Virus record (IMG/VR): IMGVR_UViG_3300005527_000109
Location: 1 to 41,131 of that record
Direction: 5' to 3' (one strand)
DNA: 41,131 bases
Origin: a virus
Below are positions 1-40,170 of the stretch, piece after piece. Both the position numbers and the translations under genes were made by a program. Under the pieces are notes generated by a model. It was not told the DNA's origin and ran no database searches. It was given only the letters and a program-made list of their open reading frames with translations. The stretch's first letter is position 1. The number at the start of each line of letters is the position of its first letter.

Positions 1-163
1 CTTCACCTTCTCCTTCACCTTCTCCCTCGCCTTCTCCTTCGCCTTCTCCTTCGCCTTCTCCTTCGCCTTCTCCTTCGCCTTCTCCCTCGCCTTCTCCTTC
101 GCCTTCTCCCTCGCCTTCTCCCTCGCCTTCTCCCTCGCCTTCTCCCTCTCCTTCACCTTCTCC
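1..163 (-). repeat. (Gly-Glu)n hexanucleotide repeat
   Basis: Imperfect 6-base repeats made of GGA/GGC/GGT and GAA/GAG codons on the minus strand encode an unbroken Gly-Glu run of about 54 residues from codon 215 to the window edge. The synonymous mix suggests selection for the peptide and not recent slippage alone. It is a long acidic, flexible linker. Confidence 0.9.
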
Positions 164-805
164 CGGTTGGTTATCATCAATTTCGGGGGTTTCCTCTTGG
201 GGTTCTTCCGCATCCTTAGTGATTGAATCTTTCTCCCCAAGAACAGTTTCAGTAACTTGATCATGATCTATAGCTCCCGGCTCAAAAACGTCACAATATG
301 ATTTAAAGAAAGGGTCTATTTTTAATCTACCAGATTTTATCTGGTCATAGATTTCTTCAGCAGAGAGATCCTGGAATTTTGAAGATTGCATGGTAGTAGG
401 AAGCTTTGATTTTCCAATACCATCTAAAAAAGCTTCAGCTGCCATGTCACATGCTGCGTTCCAGATATTAGTATCTTTACTTCCGATCCTATCATAGTGA
501 TCTAAAGCAAGATGAGAAATTCCTTGGCTAATAGCCCAGATTATTTCGTCTTCAGAAAGATCTATAACATTTTTAGGATTAAATATGAATATGGTGCCAT
601 CAGTTGAAAAATATTCGCATTCATCAGAAACTCCTACTGGGATTTCAGCAAGAACCCTCCCGAATAATCCCTCTTTCATTAAGATTTTTGAAACCGATCT
701 TCTAACTCGCATGACTGCTCTTTCATAGTCCTGCTCACTAATTCCGTAACTTGATGAATTTTCTAACAGAATACCATATTCTGCAAAGTTTCTAATTTTT
801 CTCAT
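1..805 (-). CDS. DUF2201-type metallopeptidase-like protein, C-terminus beyond left edge
   Basis: At least 268 codons are visible, starting at an ATG at 805-803 and running off the window. Residues about 88-130 resemble the N-terminal putative metallopeptidase domain of DUF2201/VWA proteins: a helix ending H98-L-A-L-D-H103, then W-N-A-A-C-D, as in family members where HExxH is followed by an N/A/D-rich helix. The first His and Glu of HExxH are replaced (Q94, G95), so catalysis is doubtful. From residue 215 the protein is a pure Gly-Glu alternation to the edge. Such proteins usually work with a MoxR ATPase, and one is encoded just upstream with a 1-base gap (807-2375). The first 16 residues resemble a T4 capsid-targeting sequence with a possible cleavage after L-L-E15. 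A VWA domain may lie past the edge; this is an inference. Confidence 0.55.
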   Translation of the reverse strand, partial: MRKIRNFAEYGILLENSSSYGISEQDYERAVMRVRRSVSKILMKEGLFGRVLAEIPVGVSDECEYFSTDGTIFIFNPKNVIDLSEDEIIWAISQGISHLALDHYDRIGSKDTNIWNAACDMAAEAFLDGIGKSKLPTTMQSSKFQDLSAEEIYDQIKSGRLKIDPFFKSYCDVFEPGAIDHDQVTETVLGEKDSITKDAEEPQEETPEIDDNQPGEGEGEGEGEGEGEGEGEGEGEGEGEGEGEGEGEGEGEGEGEGEGEGEGEGEGE

Positions 806-806
806 T

Positions 807-2375
807 CTAGATTTCTTTCATTAAAGATCTATATCTGTTCACAAATGGTGTTACATATTGTTCTAGAGAGGTATCACCCAAATAGTTTTTGATTTCCGGA
901 TGAGTTCTTTTTGCCATGTTTAATGCACTCATAGCTAATTCTCCTGTGTTTAAATCTGTTAGATATGTTATAAAATTAGTGAATTCATCTTTTGTTAACT
1001 GTTGTCCGTTTTTGTATTTGGATGCTAAGTACATGATGCTATAGCCTTTTCTCAGATCAACTCTTCCAGTATTAGAACTCATTGGAAGTTTTACTGTTTC
1101 ATCGCTAGGATCCGTAAATATCTTTTCTATTCTATTAACTGGCCAAACCTTCATCGTTTCAAGGAAATCTGTAATAATTGATGATACTTTTTTACCAATG
1201 TGTTTATCGAAGATAAGTCTGGTAGTTTCTGCTGAGATATCCCCTCCTTTTTCTTTTTGTGCGTCTCTCCTTTCTTTATATTCTCTAGCAGCATATTCCC
1301 ATGCTCTTGGTGTAACACCCATTGTAGTTTCAATATCTCCTCCAACTAATCCGCTAGGTAAAACATAGAAATAATCCTGCATAAGTTCTACAAATGCTAT
1401 AACCTCGTCGCTTAGATCTGCTTCTTTTCTTCCCCTTGCCCATTTTGTCCAAGATACAGGATCGGAAATAAAATTGACTTGAGCAAATCTATTGGCTAGT
1501 GCGAAGCTCATTGGTTTAATCATAGATCCTGGTTCATCCTCCGGTCTATTTGCTGCAGCTAGAATTAGCCATTTGCTAGGAATTTTATAATTAGCACTTG
1601 TGATTTCTCTGTCCAAAACAACTTTGAGCATTGCCGCTTGAACCGATGGGTGTGCTCTGTTAATCTCGTCTAAGAATATAATTCCACCCTTCCCCTCGAT
1701 TTTTTCTATAGTGCCATCTTCCCTCTTGATTTCTCGGTCTCCGTTATCTAAAGGCCAAATCATTGGTAAATAATTTACTGATCTTTTTACGTCGTAATCT
1801 ACATCCTTTTCAGCACCAGGTAATCCGGCAACATCCGTCGGTTCCATTAAACTTAGAATTACCTCGATAACAGGAACACCCATTCCCTTAGTCCCAAAAG
1901 ATTTTACCACGGAGGTTTTACCAATTCCTGGTGCTCCCCAAATTAATAATGGTCTACCAGTTTCTGGTTTCTGGAAGTGATATGATAGTTCCCCCGTTAA
2001 CTGATCAGCATCAACGTCAGTTATTTGAGAGTCTTGGGTCTTTTGAGCAGTTTTCCAAGATGGATCATCAGATTCTTTAATTGAAGAAATCGATCCGGAT
2101 CTAAAGTTATACGAACTGCCAGCATCACCCTCTGGAAGGTAAACCTTTACAACACTCCGTGCTTTTGCTATATTACCATTTGCGTCTTTGAATTGTTCGA
2201 ACCTTCCAGTCTCCGGATTGTATTTTTTGTCTCTAACTGGAATTTCCCCTTCCTTTTCTGCACGGATTAAATTCATTAGCCAGTTTCCTGCTTTTTTTAG
2301 TAATTCTGCTCCCCTGGAAAATATCCCAGCTTCATTAAGTCTATTAAACTCTTGAAATCCTTTGATTCTTTTCAT
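807..2375 (-). CDS. MoxR-type AAA+ ATPase with T4-like capsid-targeting N-terminus
   Basis: This 522-residue AAA+ ATPase has a Walker A GAPGIGKT at 147-154, Walker B IIFLDE at 232-237 followed by INRAHPSVQ, and a sensor-1 Asn in AAANRPED near 277. This is the MoxR/CbbQ arrangement, whose members remodel or activate partner proteins, often VWA or metallopeptidase-like ones. The partner is likely the next gene downstream on the same strand. About 140 residues precede the ATPase core; the first 16 (MKRIKGFQEF, then NRLNEA) resemble the T4 capsid-targeting peptide, with an L-N-E15|A16 site fitting the (L/I)-x-E rule of the T4 prohead protease. The start has an A/T-rich leader and no Shine-Dalgarno. 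The ATPase call is firm; packaging into the head is inference. Confidence 0.85.
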   Translation of the reverse strand: MKRIKGFQEFNRLNEAGIFSRGAELLKKAGNWLMNLIRAEKEGEIPVRDKKYNPETGRFEQFKDANGNIAKARSVVKVYLPEGDAGSSYNFRSGSISSIKESDDPSWKTAQKTQDSQITDVDADQLTGELSYHFQKPETGRPLLIWGAPGIGKTSVVKSFGTKGMGVPVIEVILSLMEPTDVAGLPGAEKDVDYDVKRSVNYLPMIWPLDNGDREIKREDGTIEKIEGKGGIIFLDEINRAHPSVQAAMLKVVLDREITSANYKIPSKWLILAAANRPEDEPGSMIKPMSFALANRFAQVNFISDPVSWTKWARGRKEADLSDEVIAFVELMQDYFYVLPSGLVGGDIETTMGVTPRAWEYAAREYKERRDAQKEKGGDISAETTRLIFDKHIGKKVSSIITDFLETMKVWPVNRIEKIFTDPSDETVKLPMSSNTGRVDLRKGYSIMYLASKYKNGQQLTKDEFTNFITYLTDLNTGELAMSALNMAKRTHPEIKNYLGDTSLEQYVTPFVNRYRSLMKEI

Positions 2376-2389
2376 TTTTTTATTTTTTT

Positions 2390-3211
2390 TTAATCCTCGA
2401 AAAATCCTGCTGATTTGAGATCGCCAAGATTGTCTATAGTTTGTGCTACGTTTTCTGTTCCTTTTTCTTTTGCAAGATTTGAAATCATATCAAAAACACC
2501 TTCTGAGAAATTTAATGCAACAAAGTCTCCGGGCTTTTGATTAAAGAGATCTAATAATTCCTGAGTTACATCAAATTCCGGTTCCTGCATCTCTTTGGGA
2601 TTTGCAAATTTTAAACCGATGTCCTCGGAAGATGCCGCAAAAAGTTTTTTAATTGTTTCTATCTGGAAATCCATTCCTCCATAAAATGAGAATTGTAAAG
2701 CCTTGTTAGTTTCGAATCCGTTTGCAATTTTTTTTCTGATGTTCTTTACTACTTCTTCGTCCCATCCTTGTTTTTTCATTAGAATTTCAAGTATCAATGC
2801 GTTACCAGATTTAAAATAAAAAGCAACATTTTGACCAAATCCAGGGATCTCAGAAAAAATTGAAGCCTTTCCTGTTAGTGATCCCGACACCATATCAGCT
2901 GGAGAATTCATTACCGTATATCCATCCTGATTTGCGCTTCTACTATATGAAATACCTCCCTTAACTTCTGGAGTTTCTGATTTAAAATGCGGGCTATTAA
3001 TAAATTGGGAGGTTTCCACAGTACATGGAACCAATACATATCCAGCTACCCCGCCAGTTCCTAAAAGTTCCGAAGGAAATTTGGTATCGGAGGTTGATAG
3101 ATTTTTATCCACTGATTTGAAGTTTTTATCAACAGGAACAAATATAAAAGCGGAATGCGTTCCTATAAATCCTTCGTTGATAAACCCAGTAAAGTCTAAG
3201 ATTCTTTTCAT
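2390..3211 (-). CDS. Unknown protein with capsid-targeting-like N-terminus
   Basis: I do not recognise the family of this 273-residue protein. The start at 3211 (MKRILDFTGF, then INEG) is preferred over an ATG ten codons upstream because it matches the N-termini of the next two genes and lies 5 bases after a GATATATA box. Residues 11-13 (I-N-E) followed by Gly fit the T4 prohead-protease rule. The rest is soluble-looking, mixed alpha/beta, with no membrane segment or obvious catalytic motif. It is the first gene of a minus-strand operon with the MoxR ATPase (14-base gap) and the metallopeptidase-like gene, so it may be a substrate or adaptor of that pair, or simply another internal head protein. 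Confidence 0.7.
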   Translation of the reverse strand: MKRILDFTGFINEGFIGTHSAFIFVPVDKNFKSVDKNLSTSDTKFPSELLGTGGVAGYVLVPCTVETSQFINSPHFKSETPEVKGGISYSRSANQDGYTVMNSPADMVSGSLTGKASIFSEIPGFGQNVAFYFKSGNALILEILMKKQGWDEEVVKNIRKKIANGFETNKALQFSFYGGMDFQIETIKKLFAASSEDIGLKFANPKEMQEPEFDVTQELLDLFNQKPGDFVALNFSEGVFDMISNLAKEKGTENVAQTIDNLGDLKSAGFFED

Positions 3212-6027: not shown

Positions 6028-6050
6028 ATCCGCTGAAAGGCGGATTTTTT
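6028..6050 (+). terminator. Intrinsic terminator
   Basis: ATCCGC/GCGGAT stem with loop TGAAAG, followed by six T. It ends the 5211-6002 transcript and lies at the convergent end of the minus-strand gene at 6049-6723, for which the A-rich flank could act in the other direction. Confidence 0.85.
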
Positions 6051-6723
6051 ATGATGTCTGGATTGGAACCGCCTTTATAAACTGCTCCCAGTTTTCTTCT
6101 GCGGTAGAAGCTATTCTCGGATCTGTACCGGAAACTGCTTCAGATCCCTTTCCTCCGGGTACTAGCCACTGACCCCATTTGGTTAAAGCTTTACCCTCAG
6201 TTCTTGCGGTAAATATCTTCCCCATCATACCGACCTTTTTACCTGCAGAAAGATCCTTCAAAGCTAGTATCATGTTATCAGTGTACTTTCCTATTCCCTT
6301 AAACTTAGATGTAAATTCTGCGCTCTTAAGAAACCTAGTAATCTTAGGGAAAAATTTGGAAACTAACGAGGCTACAGGAGCAAGCATTTTTGATCCTATT
6401 TTTCCTGTTCCCCTTAAGGTTTTTATTAGGAGTGAACCCCCTGCCCCGATATATTGTCCAAAAATTGGAATTAATCCTATCGCGCAAAGTCCAGCTAAAA
6501 GATATTCCCCCTGCTTAGCATAAGATACTAAATTTATCCCCTCGAAAAAAGATCCAATTCCTGGTATCAGTGCCGCAAAGTCAAACACTGTATTATACCA
6601 ATATTCAAAAAGCTCATCACTAGATTCTAGCATAATAAGGCTTTCTGTTATTTGATCCTCAGTAAAAACAAACTCTTTTACTAGAGAACTGCGATAATCA
6701 CTATATCTGGCCAAAAATTCCAT
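6049..6723 (-). CDS. Hydrophobic protein resembling pre-toxin membrane hairpin
   Basis: This 224-residue protein starts at 6723 (MEFLARYSDY), 5 bases after a GATATATA box; an in-frame ATG five codons upstream overlaps the box and is less likely. Residues about 45-100 form two hydrophobic helices with L-I-P-G-I-G and later L-I-P-I-F-G, separated by G-E-Y-L-L-A-G. This layout is seen in the pre-toxin hydrophobic region of bacterial polymorphic toxins (LIPGxG, then GDYxxA, then IPxxG). The rest is basic and helical. No nuclease or other toxin motif is visible. It may be an internal or tail-associated protein that inserts in membrane; function unknown. It stands alone on this strand between plus-strand genes. 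Confidence 0.65.
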   Translation of the reverse strand: MEFLARYSDYRSSLVKEFVFTEDQITESLIMLESSDELFEYWYNTVFDFAALIPGIGSFFEGINLVSYAKQGEYLLAGLCAIGLIPIFGQYIGAGGSLLIKTLRGTGKIGSKMLAPVASLVSKFFPKITRFLKSAEFTSKFKGIGKYTDNMILALKDLSAGKKVGMMGKIFTARTEGKALTKWGQWLVPGGKGSEAVSGTDPRIASTAEENWEQFIKAVPIQTS

Positions 6724-7535: not shown

Positions 7536-7805
7536 ATGGCTGACAAGAATTTTAGGAGAGTTAAGGACATTAGCCCAGATCTAGAAATTTACTACAGAAA
7601 GTATTTTGAAAGAAACGCTACCAAGTTTATCTGGAAATGGAATCTTAAGATGGCTGATCTCGAAGATACCTGGATTAGCGAGGATATTGAATACTCAATA
7701 ATCGGACAGGTCAGCGAGCACACATTCATATTAAAAAGACTAGATGAAAATTCTAGATGGTTCGTTTCAGGAGAAAAGTTCGTAAGGGATTTCTCTAAAA
7801 AATAA
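7536..7805 (+). CDS. Small unknown protein
   Basis: This 89-residue protein is not recognised. It has a Lys/Trp-rich first half (F-I-W-K-W-N) and a strand-rich second half ending W-F-V-S-G-E, suggesting a small beta-barrel. It lies 8 bases upstream of the RNase H-like gene and probably shares its transcript. Confidence 0.6.
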   Translation: MADKNFRRVKDISPDLEIYYRKYFERNATKFIWKWNLKMADLEDTWISEDIEYSIIGQVSEHTFILKRLDENSRWFVSGEKFVRDFSKK

Positions 7806-7813
7806 AGGGGAAT

Positions 7814-8272
7814 ATGACAAGAGAATTTAAAAAGATCGGTGGGGAAAATGTAGCTGATCTATTATTATATGCAAAGGAAATTCTGGCAAAAAACCCAGAT
7901 TCTAAAATACATGTGGGTTGTGATAGCCAGTCATATGCAACAAAAACAGTTTATGTTACAACAGTTGTCTTTAGGTACGAAAACAGAGGAGCTCATGTAA
8001 TTTATCAAAGAGAGGTAATCCCAAGGGTAAAGGATCTTTGGTCTAAACTCTGGGGCGAACTTAACAGAGCTATTGATGTTGCGGGATATTTGAAATTCGA
8101 GGGAAAAATTGATATTCACCAGATAGATCTGGATTATAACACAAGCCCGAAATATAAGTCTAACATCGTTTTAAAAGCTGCAGTCGGATATGTTGAAAGC
8201 ATGGGATATAATTACGCTGTAAAACCCGAAACCCTTATCGCAATCAGTGCAGCAAACGAGCTTTGCCGCTGA
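7814..8272 (+). CDS. RNase H-like protein of the YkuK/DUF458 type
   Basis: This 152-residue protein has H-V-G-C-D36-S-Q followed by a strand V-Y-V-T-T-V-V-F-R-Y, then an amphipathic helix, a strand with H-Q-I-D-L-D, and a final helix. This order matches the YkuK-like RNase H-fold family, in which the first Asp lies in a G-x-D-S-Q strand. Members are presumed nucleases, but their substrate is not established. The start has an AAAGGGG sequence upstream, one of the few purine-rich ribosome-binding-like sites here. It could be a degraded or non-catalytic RNase H fold. Confidence 0.55.
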   Translation: MTREFKKIGGENVADLLLYAKEILAKNPDSKIHVGCDSQSYATKTVYVTTVVFRYENRGAHVIYQREVIPRVKDLWSKLWGELNRAIDVAGYLKFEGKIDIHQIDLDYNTSPKYKSNIVLKAAVGYVESMGYNYAVKPETLIAISAANELCR

Positions 8273-8289
8273 AACCAAAGAACATTTTA

Positions 8290-8297
8290 GATATATA
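8290..8297 (+). promoter_or_regulatory. GATATATA box, candidate promoter
   Basis: GATATATAA lies 21 bases before the lipoprotein ATG at 8319 and just after the preceding stop codon. Confidence 0.4.
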
Positions 8298-8318
8298 AGA
8301 CTTAAATTAATCAAAAAC

Positions 8319-24652: not shown

Positions 24653-25225
24653 ATGGCAGGATTACCACATTATACGTCTTCGAAAGCAGCAGTAAACAAA
24701 TTTGAACCGATCTATACGAATCAGTTTGAAGTTGTTATTACTCCACCTGCTTCCGTAGTTCCCCCTCAGGGAAATCCTAATAATGGCAACATTCTTTTAG
24801 AGCACGTAAAAAGTGTAGAAGGATTGGGTGTTGATCAGAATCCAGGAGAAATAGCTCAGCAATATAAAAATGCTAAGAGATATTACTCCGGGGCAAAACC
24901 TAGCCAAACTGGATTTGATCTAACGATCAACTTTGAGGTAAACCTAGACGAAAATAATTCAATGTACGTTTTTAAAACAATGAGACAGTGGGCGGATTTA
25001 ATTTACAATCCACTTACGGGAGCTCAGGGTTTGAAAAGAGATTATACTGGTACCATAGTAATTAGTGCATTTAATAAGGCAGGTGACGTTTTTAGAAGAA
25101 TCACATGTAAAGACTGCTTTCTTATGGCAAGTTTAACACCTATGGATCTTAACTACACTAACACTCAGATATTTAGTTTGAGAGCTCAGTGGGCAGTAGA
25201 TTACTTTGATGACGTATTTTTATAA
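24653..25225 (+). CDS. 19: gp19-like tail tube protein, copy 1
   Basis: This 190-residue protein has the T4-type tube layout: an N-terminal F-E-V-V-I-T-P-P strand, central Y-V-F-K-T-M-R-Q-W-x-D-L-I-Y-N-P-L-T-G, and a late A-G-D-V-F-R-R-I-T-C-K-D-C-F segment. It polymerises into the inner tube through which DNA passes. A clear paralogue follows 14 bases later. T4 gp19 is 163 residues. Confidence 0.9.
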   Translation: MAGLPHYTSSKAAVNKFEPIYTNQFEVVITPPASVVPPQGNPNNGNILLEHVKSVEGLGVDQNPGEIAQQYKNAKRYYSGAKPSQTGFDLTINFEVNLDENNSMYVFKTMRQWADLIYNPLTGAQGLKRDYTGTIVISAFNKAGDVFRRITCKDCFLMASLTPMDLNYTNTQIFSLRAQWAVDYFDDVFL

Positions 25226-25239
25226 TAATTAAATAAAAA

Positions 25240-25821
25240 ATGGCAGGACTACCACATTTTACGAGTTCAAAAGCAGCAGTAAGCCTATATGAACCGGTTT
25301 ATTTAAACCAGTTTGAGGTTATAATCCAACCCCCTGCAGCAGTTTCAAACCCTGTGGGAAATGCAGGTAGATCACTTTTGGTTGAAAATATCATCTCTAT
25401 CACAGGATTGGAGGTAGATAAAACACCAAGACCTGTAGAACAAAACTACAAATTTGCAAGAAGAAGATATGCAGGTGGAGCAGTAGAGGATACTGGTGCT
25501 AGAATTAGATTACAATTCCACACAAATCTAGATGACAATAATTCTAACTATGTTCACAAGACATTGAGAGAATGGTCAGATTTAGTTTATAATCCTCTAA
25601 CAGGTGCTATGGGAATTAAAAGTACTTATGCAGCTAACACATACGTTTTAGTAAGTATGTTCAATAAACAAGGAGATGTTTTTAGAAGAGTTAAATTTTT
25701 AAATTGCTTCCCGATAGAAGCGATTACAGCTATTCCTCTACAATATGAGGGAGGTGGAAATAGACTTTATGATATAAACATATCATTCAGAGCTGACTAC
25801 TTCGAAGACACATTCAATTAA
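25240..25821 (+). CDS. gp19-like tail tube protein, copy 2
   Basis: This 193-residue paralogue of the preceding gene shares M-A-G-L-P-H-x-T-S-S-K-A-A-V at the start, the L-x-E-W-x-D-L-V-Y-N-P-L-T-G block and G-D-V-F-R-R-V, but differs in the region after residue 30 and in the C-terminal third. Two tube paralogues may give a mixed tube, or copy 2 may be a special ring at the baseplate or neck (gp54/gp3-like). It ends before a strong terminator. Confidence 0.85.
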   Translation: MAGLPHFTSSKAAVSLYEPVYLNQFEVIIQPPAAVSNPVGNAGRSLLVENIISITGLEVDKTPRPVEQNYKFARRRYAGGAVEDTGARIRLQFHTNLDDNNSNYVHKTLREWSDLVYNPLTGAMGIKSTYAANTYVLVSMFNKQGDVFRRVKFLNCFPIEAITAIPLQYEGGGNRLYDINISFRADYFEDTFN

Positions 25822-37893: not shown

Positions 37894-40170
37894 ATGGATA
37901 GAATTAACTTTGACAATAATCTAGACCAAATTAAAATGGAAAAGGCTAAGGCTGCTGCAAACAGTTTAAATGAAAGTTGGGCAGGAACCAAGGCATTTGG
38001 ACCAGGCACAGCTGGATCCTACGTTGATGGTCTACAAAAAGAGATTGCTCAAGCATCTGCTCAAGGAACTAAGATATCTAAACCAACTTTCTCTGTTGGT
38101 GTTTTAGAAACTGCAATGGCTTTGAATAATACATCTTTCGTTGAATTACATGAAGCTAAGATTTTGGTTGAAAAATACATTCATCATGCATCAATTAAAG
38201 GAGTTTCTGAAGCTTTCTTAATTGAATCTATGATTTCAGAATTGGAAAATTTTAGCTGGGAAAAACACGCTAAAAGCTCTTTAGTTAATCTAAAGAAGAT
38301 TTACGAAAAAAACAGAAAAGAAATCGAAGTTGCTAAGGCAATCGAAGATATTAATAGATCAGGAGGCAGAGACCTTTTCTCTTCTATTGTTGAATCAATG
38401 AGAACTTGGTTAGACACAGAGAACAGGGTTTCTGAGAAACTGGTTAATGACCTTAAAAAATGGTCCTTCAATCCAACAGTTAGAAGCTTGGTTGAGAAGT
38501 TTACACAGCTTGAGGGAAGCAATGGTAAATTCTCTATCAATGTTAATTCTGAAAATTGCGAGGTAAAATCTATCATAGCGCCAAGTTTAGTTTTTGAGAA
38601 CCATTCGGTTTTTGTTACTTCAGATAGATTCTTCAAGGCAACTCAAAGAGGCGTATCTGTTATGGAAAGAGCAGAAGCTTCTAAACTCCCTGGAAAATTC
38701 TTAAAAGCAGCTTTATCACTTAGCAATCCTGCTGTAAGAATTAACGAGAATGGTTTAGATATGTTCATCGGGAAAAATAAGCTTTCTGTAGTTTTTGAAA
38801 GTGACACCGAAACAAAGGCAGTATTCCTTAACGGAAAAAGAATTCCAGAAGACAGATTAGGATTTATCCTTTCTATGGAATTGAGAAATTCGTTCCAATC
38901 TTCTGCAAGTATAGTAGAACAAGCTACTGAAGTAGTAAAAGCTGCTAATTTCCTTTCTGAAATTGATTTTGGTAAAAAAATCGTTTCTAAAATATACGAA
39001 GGGGTAGAAGCTAACGTATTTAGATTCGGACAAAAAGTTTATGTTCACAAAGTTAACCCAGCTATGAAGAAGAATGATTTATTCGAGGGTAACGGAACAC
39101 AGGCAGTTAATATAGTTAAAGAATTTTTAGGATTTGATATTTCTGAATCAATGTCAGATATTCTAGAAAACGAAGATAGAGCTTTAGCTATCATGAGAAA
39201 CGATAAGCAAGCTATTAAGAACAACATGTCTATTGTTGAAAGTGAAATGGCAAAAATTGCAAAAGCAATTCAGGATAATCCATCTCTTACTGGATCTCAA
39301 GAGATTAAAGAAGCTCAAGCAATGCTTCAAAAAGAATCTGAATCTCTAAAAGATAAATGGAACCAAATCAATGTTGAAATCGAGAGATTTGAAAAGTATG
39401 CTAAAAAGGTTTCTTCAGTTAACGAAAGTGACGGATATCAAATAAACACAGACGTTAAGATCAGAAGAAACGGAGAAAAAGGTAAGGTTGTAGGGGTTAA
39501 CGGTAATTCTAAAACATACACTGTTATGTTTGAAAACGGTAGAACGGGAGAATACTTCTTTAATGATGTAGTTGATATTTCAGACGAAATTGAAAATATT
39601 GAACTTAAACCAGTAAATGATCTAGGCGAAGAATCAATCGAAAACATAGAAATAGAAGGATCAGAAGCAAACGAAGGCCTAGATGCTGATATGAATTTAG
39701 CTGAGGCACCTTCTAAATCTGCTGGGGGATCTGCTAAAGATATTGATAATTTAGGAAATCATAACCTATCTGAAGCCCCTAATAAGCAAGCTAAATCTGC
39801 TAAAGATCCTAGAGGAGTAACTGGAAATCATGAATTAGCTTCCGCTCCAGAGGGAAAATCTGGAAAAGATAAAAAATTCATCGATAAAGAAGGTAATATG
39901 AACCTGGCAGAAGCTCCTGGCACAAGTGCAGGCGCAGCTCCTAAATTTATTGACAATTTGAAAAATCACAAACTTTCTGAATCACAAAAGAATTCGCATG
40001 TTGAAAAAGCACCTAAAGGAAAATCTGAAAAACCTAAAAAATTCGTAGAAGATTTAGATGATGCTGAATTAGCAGAAGCACCAGGTAATCACAAGAAAAA
40101 TGGCAAGAAAGATCATGAACCTCTTAACAGAGCAACCCTTGCAAAAGCACCTGCTTCAAAAAAAAAGTAA
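37894..40170 (+). CDS. Large putative prohead core / scaffold-like protein with L-x-E-A-P repeats
   Basis: This 758-residue protein is mostly helical, with a small KOW/SH3-like segment about 530-565 (I-R-R-N-G-E-K-G-K-V-V-G-V). From about 600 to 755 it holds eight copies of a repeat centred on L-x-(E/S/K)-A-P, at residues 604, 627, 650, 673, 696, then 705, 728 and 751. Period is 23 within each run, with a 9-residue phase jump. Copies at 604, 627, 673, 696 and 728 keep L-x-E, matching the T4 prohead-protease rule; 650, 705 and 751 do not. An N-terminal S-L-N-E27|S is also present. It may be a cleaved scaffold or core protein. The stop directly follows an A9G slippery run. Confidence 0.7.
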   Translation: MDRINFDNNLDQIKMEKAKAAANSLNESWAGTKAFGPGTAGSYVDGLQKEIAQASAQGTKISKPTFSVGVLETAMALNNTSFVELHEAKILVEKYIHHASIKGVSEAFLIESMISELENFSWEKHAKSSLVNLKKIYEKNRKEIEVAKAIEDINRSGGRDLFSSIVESMRTWLDTENRVSEKLVNDLKKWSFNPTVRSLVEKFTQLEGSNGKFSINVNSENCEVKSIIAPSLVFENHSVFVTSDRFFKATQRGVSVMERAEASKLPGKFLKAALSLSNPAVRINENGLDMFIGKNKLSVVFESDTETKAVFLNGKRIPEDRLGFILSMELRNSFQSSASIVEQATEVVKAANFLSEIDFGKKIVSKIYEGVEANVFRFGQKVYVHKVNPAMKKNDLFEGNGTQAVNIVKEFLGFDISESMSDILENEDRALAIMRNDKQAIKNNMSIVESEMAKIAKAIQDNPSLTGSQEIKEAQAMLQKESESLKDKWNQINVEIERFEKYAKKVSSVNESDGYQINTDVKIRRNGEKGKVVGVNGNSKTYTVMFENGRTGEYFFNDVVDISDEIENIELKPVNDLGEESIENIEIEGSEANEGLDADMNLAEAPSKSAGGSAKDIDNLGNHNLSEAPNKQAKSAKDPRGVTGNHELASAPEGKSGKDKKFIDKEGNMNLAEAPGTSAGAAPKFIDNLKNHKLSESQKNSHVEKAPKGKSEKPKKFVEDLDDAELAEAPGNHKKNGKKDHEPLNRATLAKAPASKKK
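39700..40150 (+). repeat. 23-residue (69-bp) tandem protein repeat
   Basis: Eight divergent units around L-x-(E/S/K)-A-P in the C-terminal part of the 37894-40170 protein, in two runs (five units, then three), separated by a shorter phase step. Bases differ between copies, so the repeat is old and maintained as protein. Confidence 0.8.

Follow-up and report, generated by a model that had tools for sequence, protein, structure and literature searches.

Candidate capsid-targeting sequences suggest that a MoxR-type remodeling machine of large uncultured phages travels inside the virus particle

Three tagged genes at the left end of the window

The window analyzed here (IMGVR_UViG_3300005527_000109; G000) is a whole 41,131-base virus record, probably a fragment, of a phage known from metagenome records alone; the appearance of the genes hints at a host among the Bacteroidota. 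Three genes at its left end, all on the minus strand, namely A (2–805), B (807–2375) and C (2390–3211), encode proteins whose N-termini have a common form, M-(K/R)-x-I-x-x-F...(L/I)-x-E|(A/G/N), where the bar marks the predicted cleavage site. The T4 prohead protease cuts after (L/I)-x-E. B is a MoxR-type AAA+ ATPase and A belongs to the DUF2201 family of its partners, and the analysis suggests that this tagged, ATP-driven remodeling machine of large uncultured phages travels inside the virus particle. Sequence comparison gives good support to reading the N-termini as capsid-targeting sequences, and capsid targeting is likely; from this we infer delivery into the host. Among the explanations considered, an injected MoxR machine appears the most likely, and its targeting to the capsid, packaging and entry into the host is, by a modest preference, our best explanation overall.

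The N-termini read MRKIRNFAEYGILLE15|N in A, MKRIKGFQEFNRLNE15|A in B and MKRILDFTGFINE13|G in C. The first-pass annotation had reported these letters and positions and a MoxR ATPase among the tagged trio; direct reading of the sequence gave the same result, and B was assigned to the MoxR-type AAA+ proteins by Pfam, PHROG and fold matches. Its idea of a tagged partner stands in that A is tagged and of the DUF2201 family, but A is one half of a split DUF2201-vWA protein rather than a whole partner.

Gene B encodes 522 aa with an N-terminal extension of ~100 residues (AAA_5, PF07728, 1.8e-10; phrog_1297, 2.2e-51). Its predicted capsid-targeting propeptide, drawn from the sequence, homologues and a structural model, covers residues 1–15 (2331–2375) with a cut after LNE15. 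The ATPase body, delimited by the phrog_1297 match, covers residues 139–503 (867–1961), and the Walker A motif GAPGIGKT was read at 1914–1937.

Gene A is the 5' part of a gene that is open at the window end; it encodes the DUF2201_N metallopeptidase-like half, followed by a Gly-Glu repeat (PF13203, E = 1e-13; phrog_1314, 1.3e-20). The sequence and homologue sites (LLKE|N in L043–L045, LLKE|S in L046) point to a propeptide of residues 1–15 (761–805) cut after LLE15. Comparison with the HExxH of homologues located a degenerate metal site, QGISH, at residues 94–98 (512–526). The Gly-Glu repeat linker occupies 2–166 (end approximate), and in the near-identical records L040, L041 and L042, which have longer copies of A, the ORF (open reading frame) varies in length (355, 323 and 411 aa). 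This repeat also forms the end of the window record, perhaps as an assembly break. Of the vWA partner of B, the DUF2201_N half lies in the window; the vWA half is outside it and is found in L040–L042 as a separate, untagged gene adjoining the A-type half.

Gene C encodes 273 aa and was found in near relatives alone (3/32 records searched). Its start was set at the internal ATG at 3211 and not at that of a longer GTG ORF, and homologues concur. The predicted propeptide, based on an alignment of homologues, covers residues 1–13 (3173–3211) with a cut after INE13; F7, F10, N12 and E13 are invariant in 5/5 aligned sequences. No convincing family match was found for C (Pfam none; best PHROG E 0.087), and its AlphaFold model was unusable, with a predicted local distance difference test score (pLDDT) of 42. 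Kinship of C with the tagged proteins G002 61255 and G004 10119 was considered and found unsupported (hhalign probability 0.1).

Conservation of the tags among MoxR and DUF2201/vWA relatives

An alignment search of viral contigs found 247 relatives, of which the best 80 were kept and gave 78 loci; distant relatives are therefore under-sampled. Near-copies remain among the loci, and the counts are not independent events. Rows were dropped for a MoxR E value above 1e-10, identical duplicates, no Walker match, an open 5' end or a DUF2201 gene >6.5 kb away, and a MoxR protein was called extended if it had at least 90 residues before Walker A. The 63 distinct MoxR proteins (LR756500 added) comprised 43 extended and 20 short ones, and the tag pattern was found on 34/43 and 0/20 of them, respectively. 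A second pattern also matched 34/43 extended (8.1 expected by shuffling) and 0/20 short proteins (0.9 expected) and, unmasked, the DUF2201 partners at 29 of 35 extended loci (7.2 expected). When the conserved domain core was masked, with E additionally permitted after the site, both partners were tagged at 27, one at 4 and none at 4 of the 35 extended loci, and neither partner was tagged at the short loci (0/11). The pattern is imperfect both ways: unmatched DUF2201 proteins of L053 and L084 have tag-like starts by eye. Typical N-termini of the relatives are MKKIYNFKEFVNE|S and MGKRIYNFDEFVNE|S on MoxR and MKRILSFSDFAIFE|Y on DUF2201.

The tag is conserved among MoxR proteins that share 24–30% identity with B (25 of the 28 sequences in the alignment with B). 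A tree built from 54 ATPase bodies placed each of its 34 extended proteins on one side of a branch with a support of 100 in the Shimodaira–Hasegawa-like approximate likelihood ratio test (SH-aLRT), and four short proteins (L047, L064, L067 and L117) share that side. A quick method gave six changes of the tag label on this tree, at least four of which are forced by well-supported branches. B belongs to a MoxR clade that mostly has a long N-terminal extension and that, in this analysis, comes only from uncultured phages.

Searches of annotated phages with three MoxR queries and one DUF2201-vWA query matched 529, 448, 655 and 102 records, and among the best matches listed (40/529, 40/448, 25/655 and 30/102) no annotated phage matched >80% of the query. 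The uncultured phage LR756500.1 topped all four match lists; in this 462-kb phage both the MoxR protein and the fused DUF2201-vWA protein are tagged. The isolate pairs translated were those of Munch and MarsHill alone, both untagged and without the long extension, the former in the presence of an S77 protease, and other isolates may carry tags. In L037, a leucine-rich-repeat protein (by eye; 7541–8314) with the start MKYIQTYKDFLLE|A adjoins the tagged LR756500 pair. At L084, L085, L086, L092, L093 and L097, two tandem extended MoxR genes are followed by one DUF2201-vWA gene.

Joint absence of tags, and second cassettes

At locus L047, whose MoxR protein is 64% identical to B, this protein begins just ahead of the ATPase body and the tag is absent. 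The DUF2201-vWA gene starts beyond the point where the tag would stand and is immediately preceded by a stop codon. Gene C does not occur at this locus, where ~50 bases lie between the preceding gene and the MoxR start; both enzymes are otherwise intact and in frame. Both tags are also missing at L064 and L067, which are nested in the tagged clade. This joint absence implies that the tags behave as a separable addressing label common to the partners. Representing two or three events, it is the best evidence here for a single meaning of the N-termini, as far as sequences can tell.

The record of L047 (G008) has another cassette ~5 kb on, with a tag-like MoxR and DUF2201 (hmmsearch 2.8e-77 and 7e-38). 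A second cassette is also present in G002 at 208080–211516, encoding DUF2201 (HEIMH intact), vWA and MoxR; tag-like starts were seen on DUF2201 and MoxR, the former being missed by the masked pattern. In each of five more records, two MoxR loci encode different proteins (L066/L075, L065/L088, L073/L081, L074/L078 and L087/L091). Elsewhere in G002 (62492–63286; L027:8492–9286), a CHAP-domain protein (PF05257, 3.1e-10) has the tag-like start MRKIQSFSQFVSE|A and is possibly a packaged cell-wall hydrolase.

Occurrence of the tag pattern in whole genomes

All patterns were devised after A, B and C had been seen, and these three are among the counted rows. A generalized pattern matched 2/46 non-overlapping ORFs of the window (B and C); A, being open-ended, was checked directly, outside the 46-ORF set, and matched as well. 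Shuffling of residues 2–36 (2000 shuffles, 46 ORFs) gave 1.1 matches expected and at least three in 9% of shuffles, so the window statistics alone are weak and not compelling. No other ORF in the window matched, including the replication, recombination and tail genes recognized by Pfam/PHROG matches or by eye; an equal spread of the pattern over clearly non-virion genes, which the first-pass annotation had named as fatal to its proposal, was not seen in the window.

In the near relatives G002 (219 kb; B and C 100% identical to those of the window) and G004 (245 kb; 67% identical in B), a stricter pattern, in which an L-x-E-like site must follow, was clearly enriched: it matched 16/259 ORFs (shuffled mean 2.5, max 9) and 17/301 ORFs (mean 2.3, max 7), respectively, in 300 shuffles, and some of these matches look spurious by eye, e.g., the signal-peptide-like G004 50288. 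The looser pattern, whose excess was less marked, matched 16/236 ORFs in G002 (shuffled mean 5.2, max 12) and 18/275 in G004 (mean 5.8, max 15). A broad pattern, the third used, was applied to 162 pairs of a G002 protein and its top G004 match, taken in one direction; it was found in both members of 12 pairs, in one member of 16 and in neither of 134. In a T4 control, the looser pattern recovered IPI, IPII and IPIII; the start MKTYQEFIAE|A, ascribed to T4 internal proteins from the outset, was seen there for IPII and IPIII.

Head protease, capsid protein and scaffold in relatives

The protease and capsid protein expected for T4-type internal proteins were found in G002 and G004 and not in the window fragment itself. 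Both relatives encode an S77 head protease (phrog_207 for both; PF03420 for G004), which is fused to a tail that resembles a scaffold and contains YLAE repeats. The tail in G004 contains 25 [LI]xE motifs in 513 residues against 10.2 expected (max 20 in 2000 shuffles); the G002 piece, which is cut by a run of N, contains 10 in 233 residues against 5.0, within the shuffled max of 12. In the Gp23 capsid proteins (PF07068) of both, residue 43 is the E of an SLNE|S motif, in G004 fifty residues ahead of the start of the Pfam match, and this is likely the maturation site. Of 17 Gp23 loci fetched, 11 were read by eye: seven have LNE|S or LNE|N in the SLNE region, three have LYE|N, IFE|G and VYE|A, and L134 has no site in register. 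The sites of A, B and C (LLE|N, LNE|A and INE|G) are of the same make as those of Gp23.

Tag-like N-termini were also found on proteins encoded beside the protease and Gp23 in G004 (158557, 165829 and 166941). The first of these genes (158557–159303), located upstream of the head protease, encodes a tagged nucleotidyltransferase-like protein with a weak NTP_transf_2 match below the cut-off. Protease and Gp23 matches occur in further tagged-MoxR records (G017, G020, G023, G031 and G035); overall, S77 was found in 11/50 and 4/25 records, phrog_207 in 13/36 and Gp23 in 14/36. Within the window, a gene at 37894–40170 (plus strand) encodes a 758-aa protein without a convincing family match in Pfam or PHROG, whose C-terminus repeats LAEAP/LSEAP. 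Eight LxE(A/S) sites were counted in it, where 0.9 were expected and 2000 shuffles gave at most 5; judging by its sequence, it is likely a component of the prohead core or scaffold that the same protease cuts.

Enzyme identity and predicted structure

B has the AAA_5/AAA_3 domain, Walker motifs and a MoxR-like fold. Its AlphaFold model (29 sequences) had a mean pLDDT of 77.6, mostly >85 in the ATPase body and <50 at residues 1–31, 43–63 and 69–102, with a short helix (7–13) and a longer one (22–41) of low confidence. In the model, the tag would not be part of the confidently folded body, which is what a propeptide should show, and low pLDDT at the tag would equally arise from an alignment that is diverse in that region. 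Foldseek ranks 1–12 were NorQ alone or with the vWA domain of NorD (best E 7.8e-9; template modeling score by query length about 0.3). NorQ-NorD is likewise a MoxR-vWA pair but, unlike B in its phage setting, serves cellular nitric oxide reductase maturation.

The zinc site HExxH of DUF2201 is absent from A, which has QGISH in its place, so no peptidase activity is expected of A. The site is degraded (QGxxH) in 8/8 loci L040–L047 and kept at other readable loci. In G002, the pseudo-peptidase DUF2201 of the window's group stands beside an intact paralogue. The family phrog_1314 is labeled HNH endonuclease, yet it matches DUF2201-vWA over nearly the full length; this label, also found as a name on such genes in several phage records, looks wrong.

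Comparison with known systems

MoxR-vWA pairs in jumbo phages and capsid-targeting sequences of T4 are each already known. In T4, ~10 N-terminal residues conserved in IPII/IPIII suffice to bring GFP into the core, and gp21 removes small N-terminal peptides from IPI–III and Alt (PMC9958956). The internal proteins of T4 enter the host by injection, and one of them, IPI, acts against a restriction system (PMC9391042). Like A, B and C, IPI, IPII and IPIII start with a short tag that contains aromatic residues and ends in (L/I)-x-E, and the near relatives of the window share with T4 an S77-type protease and Gp23; unlike them, the T4 proteins are small and single (ORFs of 95, 100 and 193 aa), whereas here a 522-aa AAA+ ATPase and its partner are tagged.

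Iyer et al. (2021) described MoxR-vWA-metallopeptidase systems in group 2.2 jumbo phages, where the metallopeptidase is N-terminal and the genes are N4 gp24/gp25-like, and proposed a role in virion assembly (PMC7824862). The same ATPase and DUF2201-vWA families are encoded there by adjoining genes; by contrast, the available text mentions no tag, and the pairs of the isolates Munch and MarsHill differ as noted above. In Acidianus two-tailed virus (ATV), the MoxR protein p618 is a major virion component and binds the vWA protein p892 (PMC4124505). This virus is archaeal and the pair has a tail-growth role, with no targeting tag mentioned in the accessible part of that paper. One peptide of a MoxR-like ATPase was detected in virions of the Staphylococcus phage DC4, for which the authors want confirmation (PMC10638138). 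SPN3US and phiKZ resemble the present case in their multi-protein load of a giant head and in protease-cut N-terminal propeptides inferred to target proteins, but several of these propeptides are >100 residues long, the motifs are AxE or SxE and the proteins are different (PMC5694885). A MoxR system delivered with the DNA had been expected to be novel; the presence of MoxR in virions has precedents in ATV p618 and the DC4 peptide, and the connection with capsid targeting appears new, as a literature search, whose coverage excluded subscription papers and preprints, found no paper joining MoxR-vWA with capsid-targeting sequences.

Proposed mechanism and alternative explanations

We propose that A, B and C are internal head proteins with a T4-style capsid-targeting sequence of 13–15 residues. 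The tag very probably directs the proteins into the prohead, where it would draw A, B and C into the core. With somewhat less certainty, it is probably cut after E: the S77 head protease would remove it after (L/I/V)-x-E while trimming Gp23, which has the same type of site, and shredding the scaffold. Mature B, its DUF2201/vWA co-factor and C would then remain in the head, and by analogy with T4 their presence in mature virions is reasonably probable; the prediction is that N-termini in virions start at residues 16 (A), 16 (B) and 14 (C). They would enter the host with the DNA, the untagged vWA half from outside the window perhaps being carried in by binding. That the proteins act in the new host is a more tentative suggestion, again by analogy. 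The pair might assemble there at once and, on host ATP, remodel a host target; the most likely role would be an early counter-defense or take-over step, as for T4 internal proteins. More broadly, it is conceivable, though doubtful as yet, that a giant T4-like phage clade pre-loads the MoxR-vWA machine, often as two paralogous cassettes, through tags on both partners and injects it together with its genome, and that the tags are gained and lost as a set while the enzymes are retained.

Several observations weigh against this interpretation. The unmasked pattern matched 5/11 DUF2201 proteins of short loci, all inside the conserved domain core. In T4, the looser pattern also marked six ORFs other than internal proteins and missed Alt (9/254 ORFs in total; shuffled mean 4.8, max 12); against this background a lone match is weak evidence, and the pattern serves as a label only when conservation supports it. 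In G027, whose pair is untagged, 7/153 ORFs are tag-like, which is within shuffling (mean 3.0, max 8). The split vWA halves are untagged (3/33 match against 1.7 expected), so packaging of the complete machine would require vWA to be carried by a partner. The pair of L064/L067 is untagged though the records have the same protease type and an LNE|S capsid protein and, together with L047, these loci indicate from their sequences that the enzymes can work without tags. No S77, phrog_207 or Gp23 match was found in the tagged-MoxR records G010, G045, G033 and G039 (348, 235, 207 and 154 kb), which may be fragments or diverged. In addition, the hexameric AAA+ ring is larger than the tail tube, so that delivery needs monomers, probably unfolded.

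An assembly factor would account for the tags differently: the machine would enter the prohead and remodel or clear core proteins there or on the prohead, with no delivery. This would extend the virion-assembly role proposed for the group 2.2 jumbo phages (PMC7824862). Also in its favor, ATV p618/p892 is assigned to tail development (PMC4124505), and DUF2201 outside the window's own group retains HExxH wherever the segment is readable. It is nevertheless unlikely in our view, given that the window's DUF2201 has lost this site, gene C matches no family and the interior of a closed prohead lacks its own source of ATP; moreover, L047 and L064/L067 keep the enzymes without tags, and the pair can therefore act without entering the head.

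Less probable still is a conserved docking or membrane-anchoring helix, e.g., one that binds scaffold or a shared adaptor from outside, in which Glu would not be a cut site. The low-confidence helices 7–13 and 22–41 drawn in the B model fit such a function, and nine extended MoxR proteins lack the strict pattern, in several of which, by eye, a helix-like stretch comes after a retained LNE- or VDE-like triplet. However, the L-x-E triplet recurs in Gp23 and in the scaffold repeats, and the residue after E is mostly S, A, G, N, D or like, though the pattern itself demands such residues. A likeness by chance or shared ancestry without function, i.e., a common lysine-hydrophobic N-terminus found by eye, could draw on the 9% of window shuffles and the six surplus T4 matches. 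The conservation of the tag in distant MoxR proteins already makes it unlikely on sequence grounds and, with the enrichment in G002 and G004 and the joint presence or absence on two unrelated proteins, we give it hardly any weight.

If the injected MoxR machine is real, capsid-targeting sequences together with conservation could be read as labels listing what uncultured giant phages inject. One injected cargo would be a whole AAA+ remodeling system, an energy-dependent machine and not a simple inhibitor, and the phage MoxR-vWA pair would shift from a proposed assembly chaperone to a possible first-minute effector.

Other observations

A nucleotide search (near mode) of window positions 1–25000 against 50,697 phage records gave no match. 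A PADLOC scan of nine proteins revealed no convincing defense family; the matches were weak, the best (1.7e-5) being to AAA parts. The gene at 6049–6723 (minus strand) of the window starts with MEFLARYSDYRSSLVKE (MNFLSTYSEYRSGLIES in G004) and has a hydrophobic, glycine-rich middle; this may be a further variant of the tag, and the broad pattern matched the G002 copy and not the G004 copy. Two adjoining portal-family genes, both phrog_213, are located at 145351–148680 of G004, and the same layout was recognized in G002 by N-terminus. Adjacent paralogues at 24653–25225 and 25240–25821 (plus strand) of the window (MAGLPHYTSSKAAV and MAGLPHFTSSKAAV) are, by eye, probably tail tube proteins.

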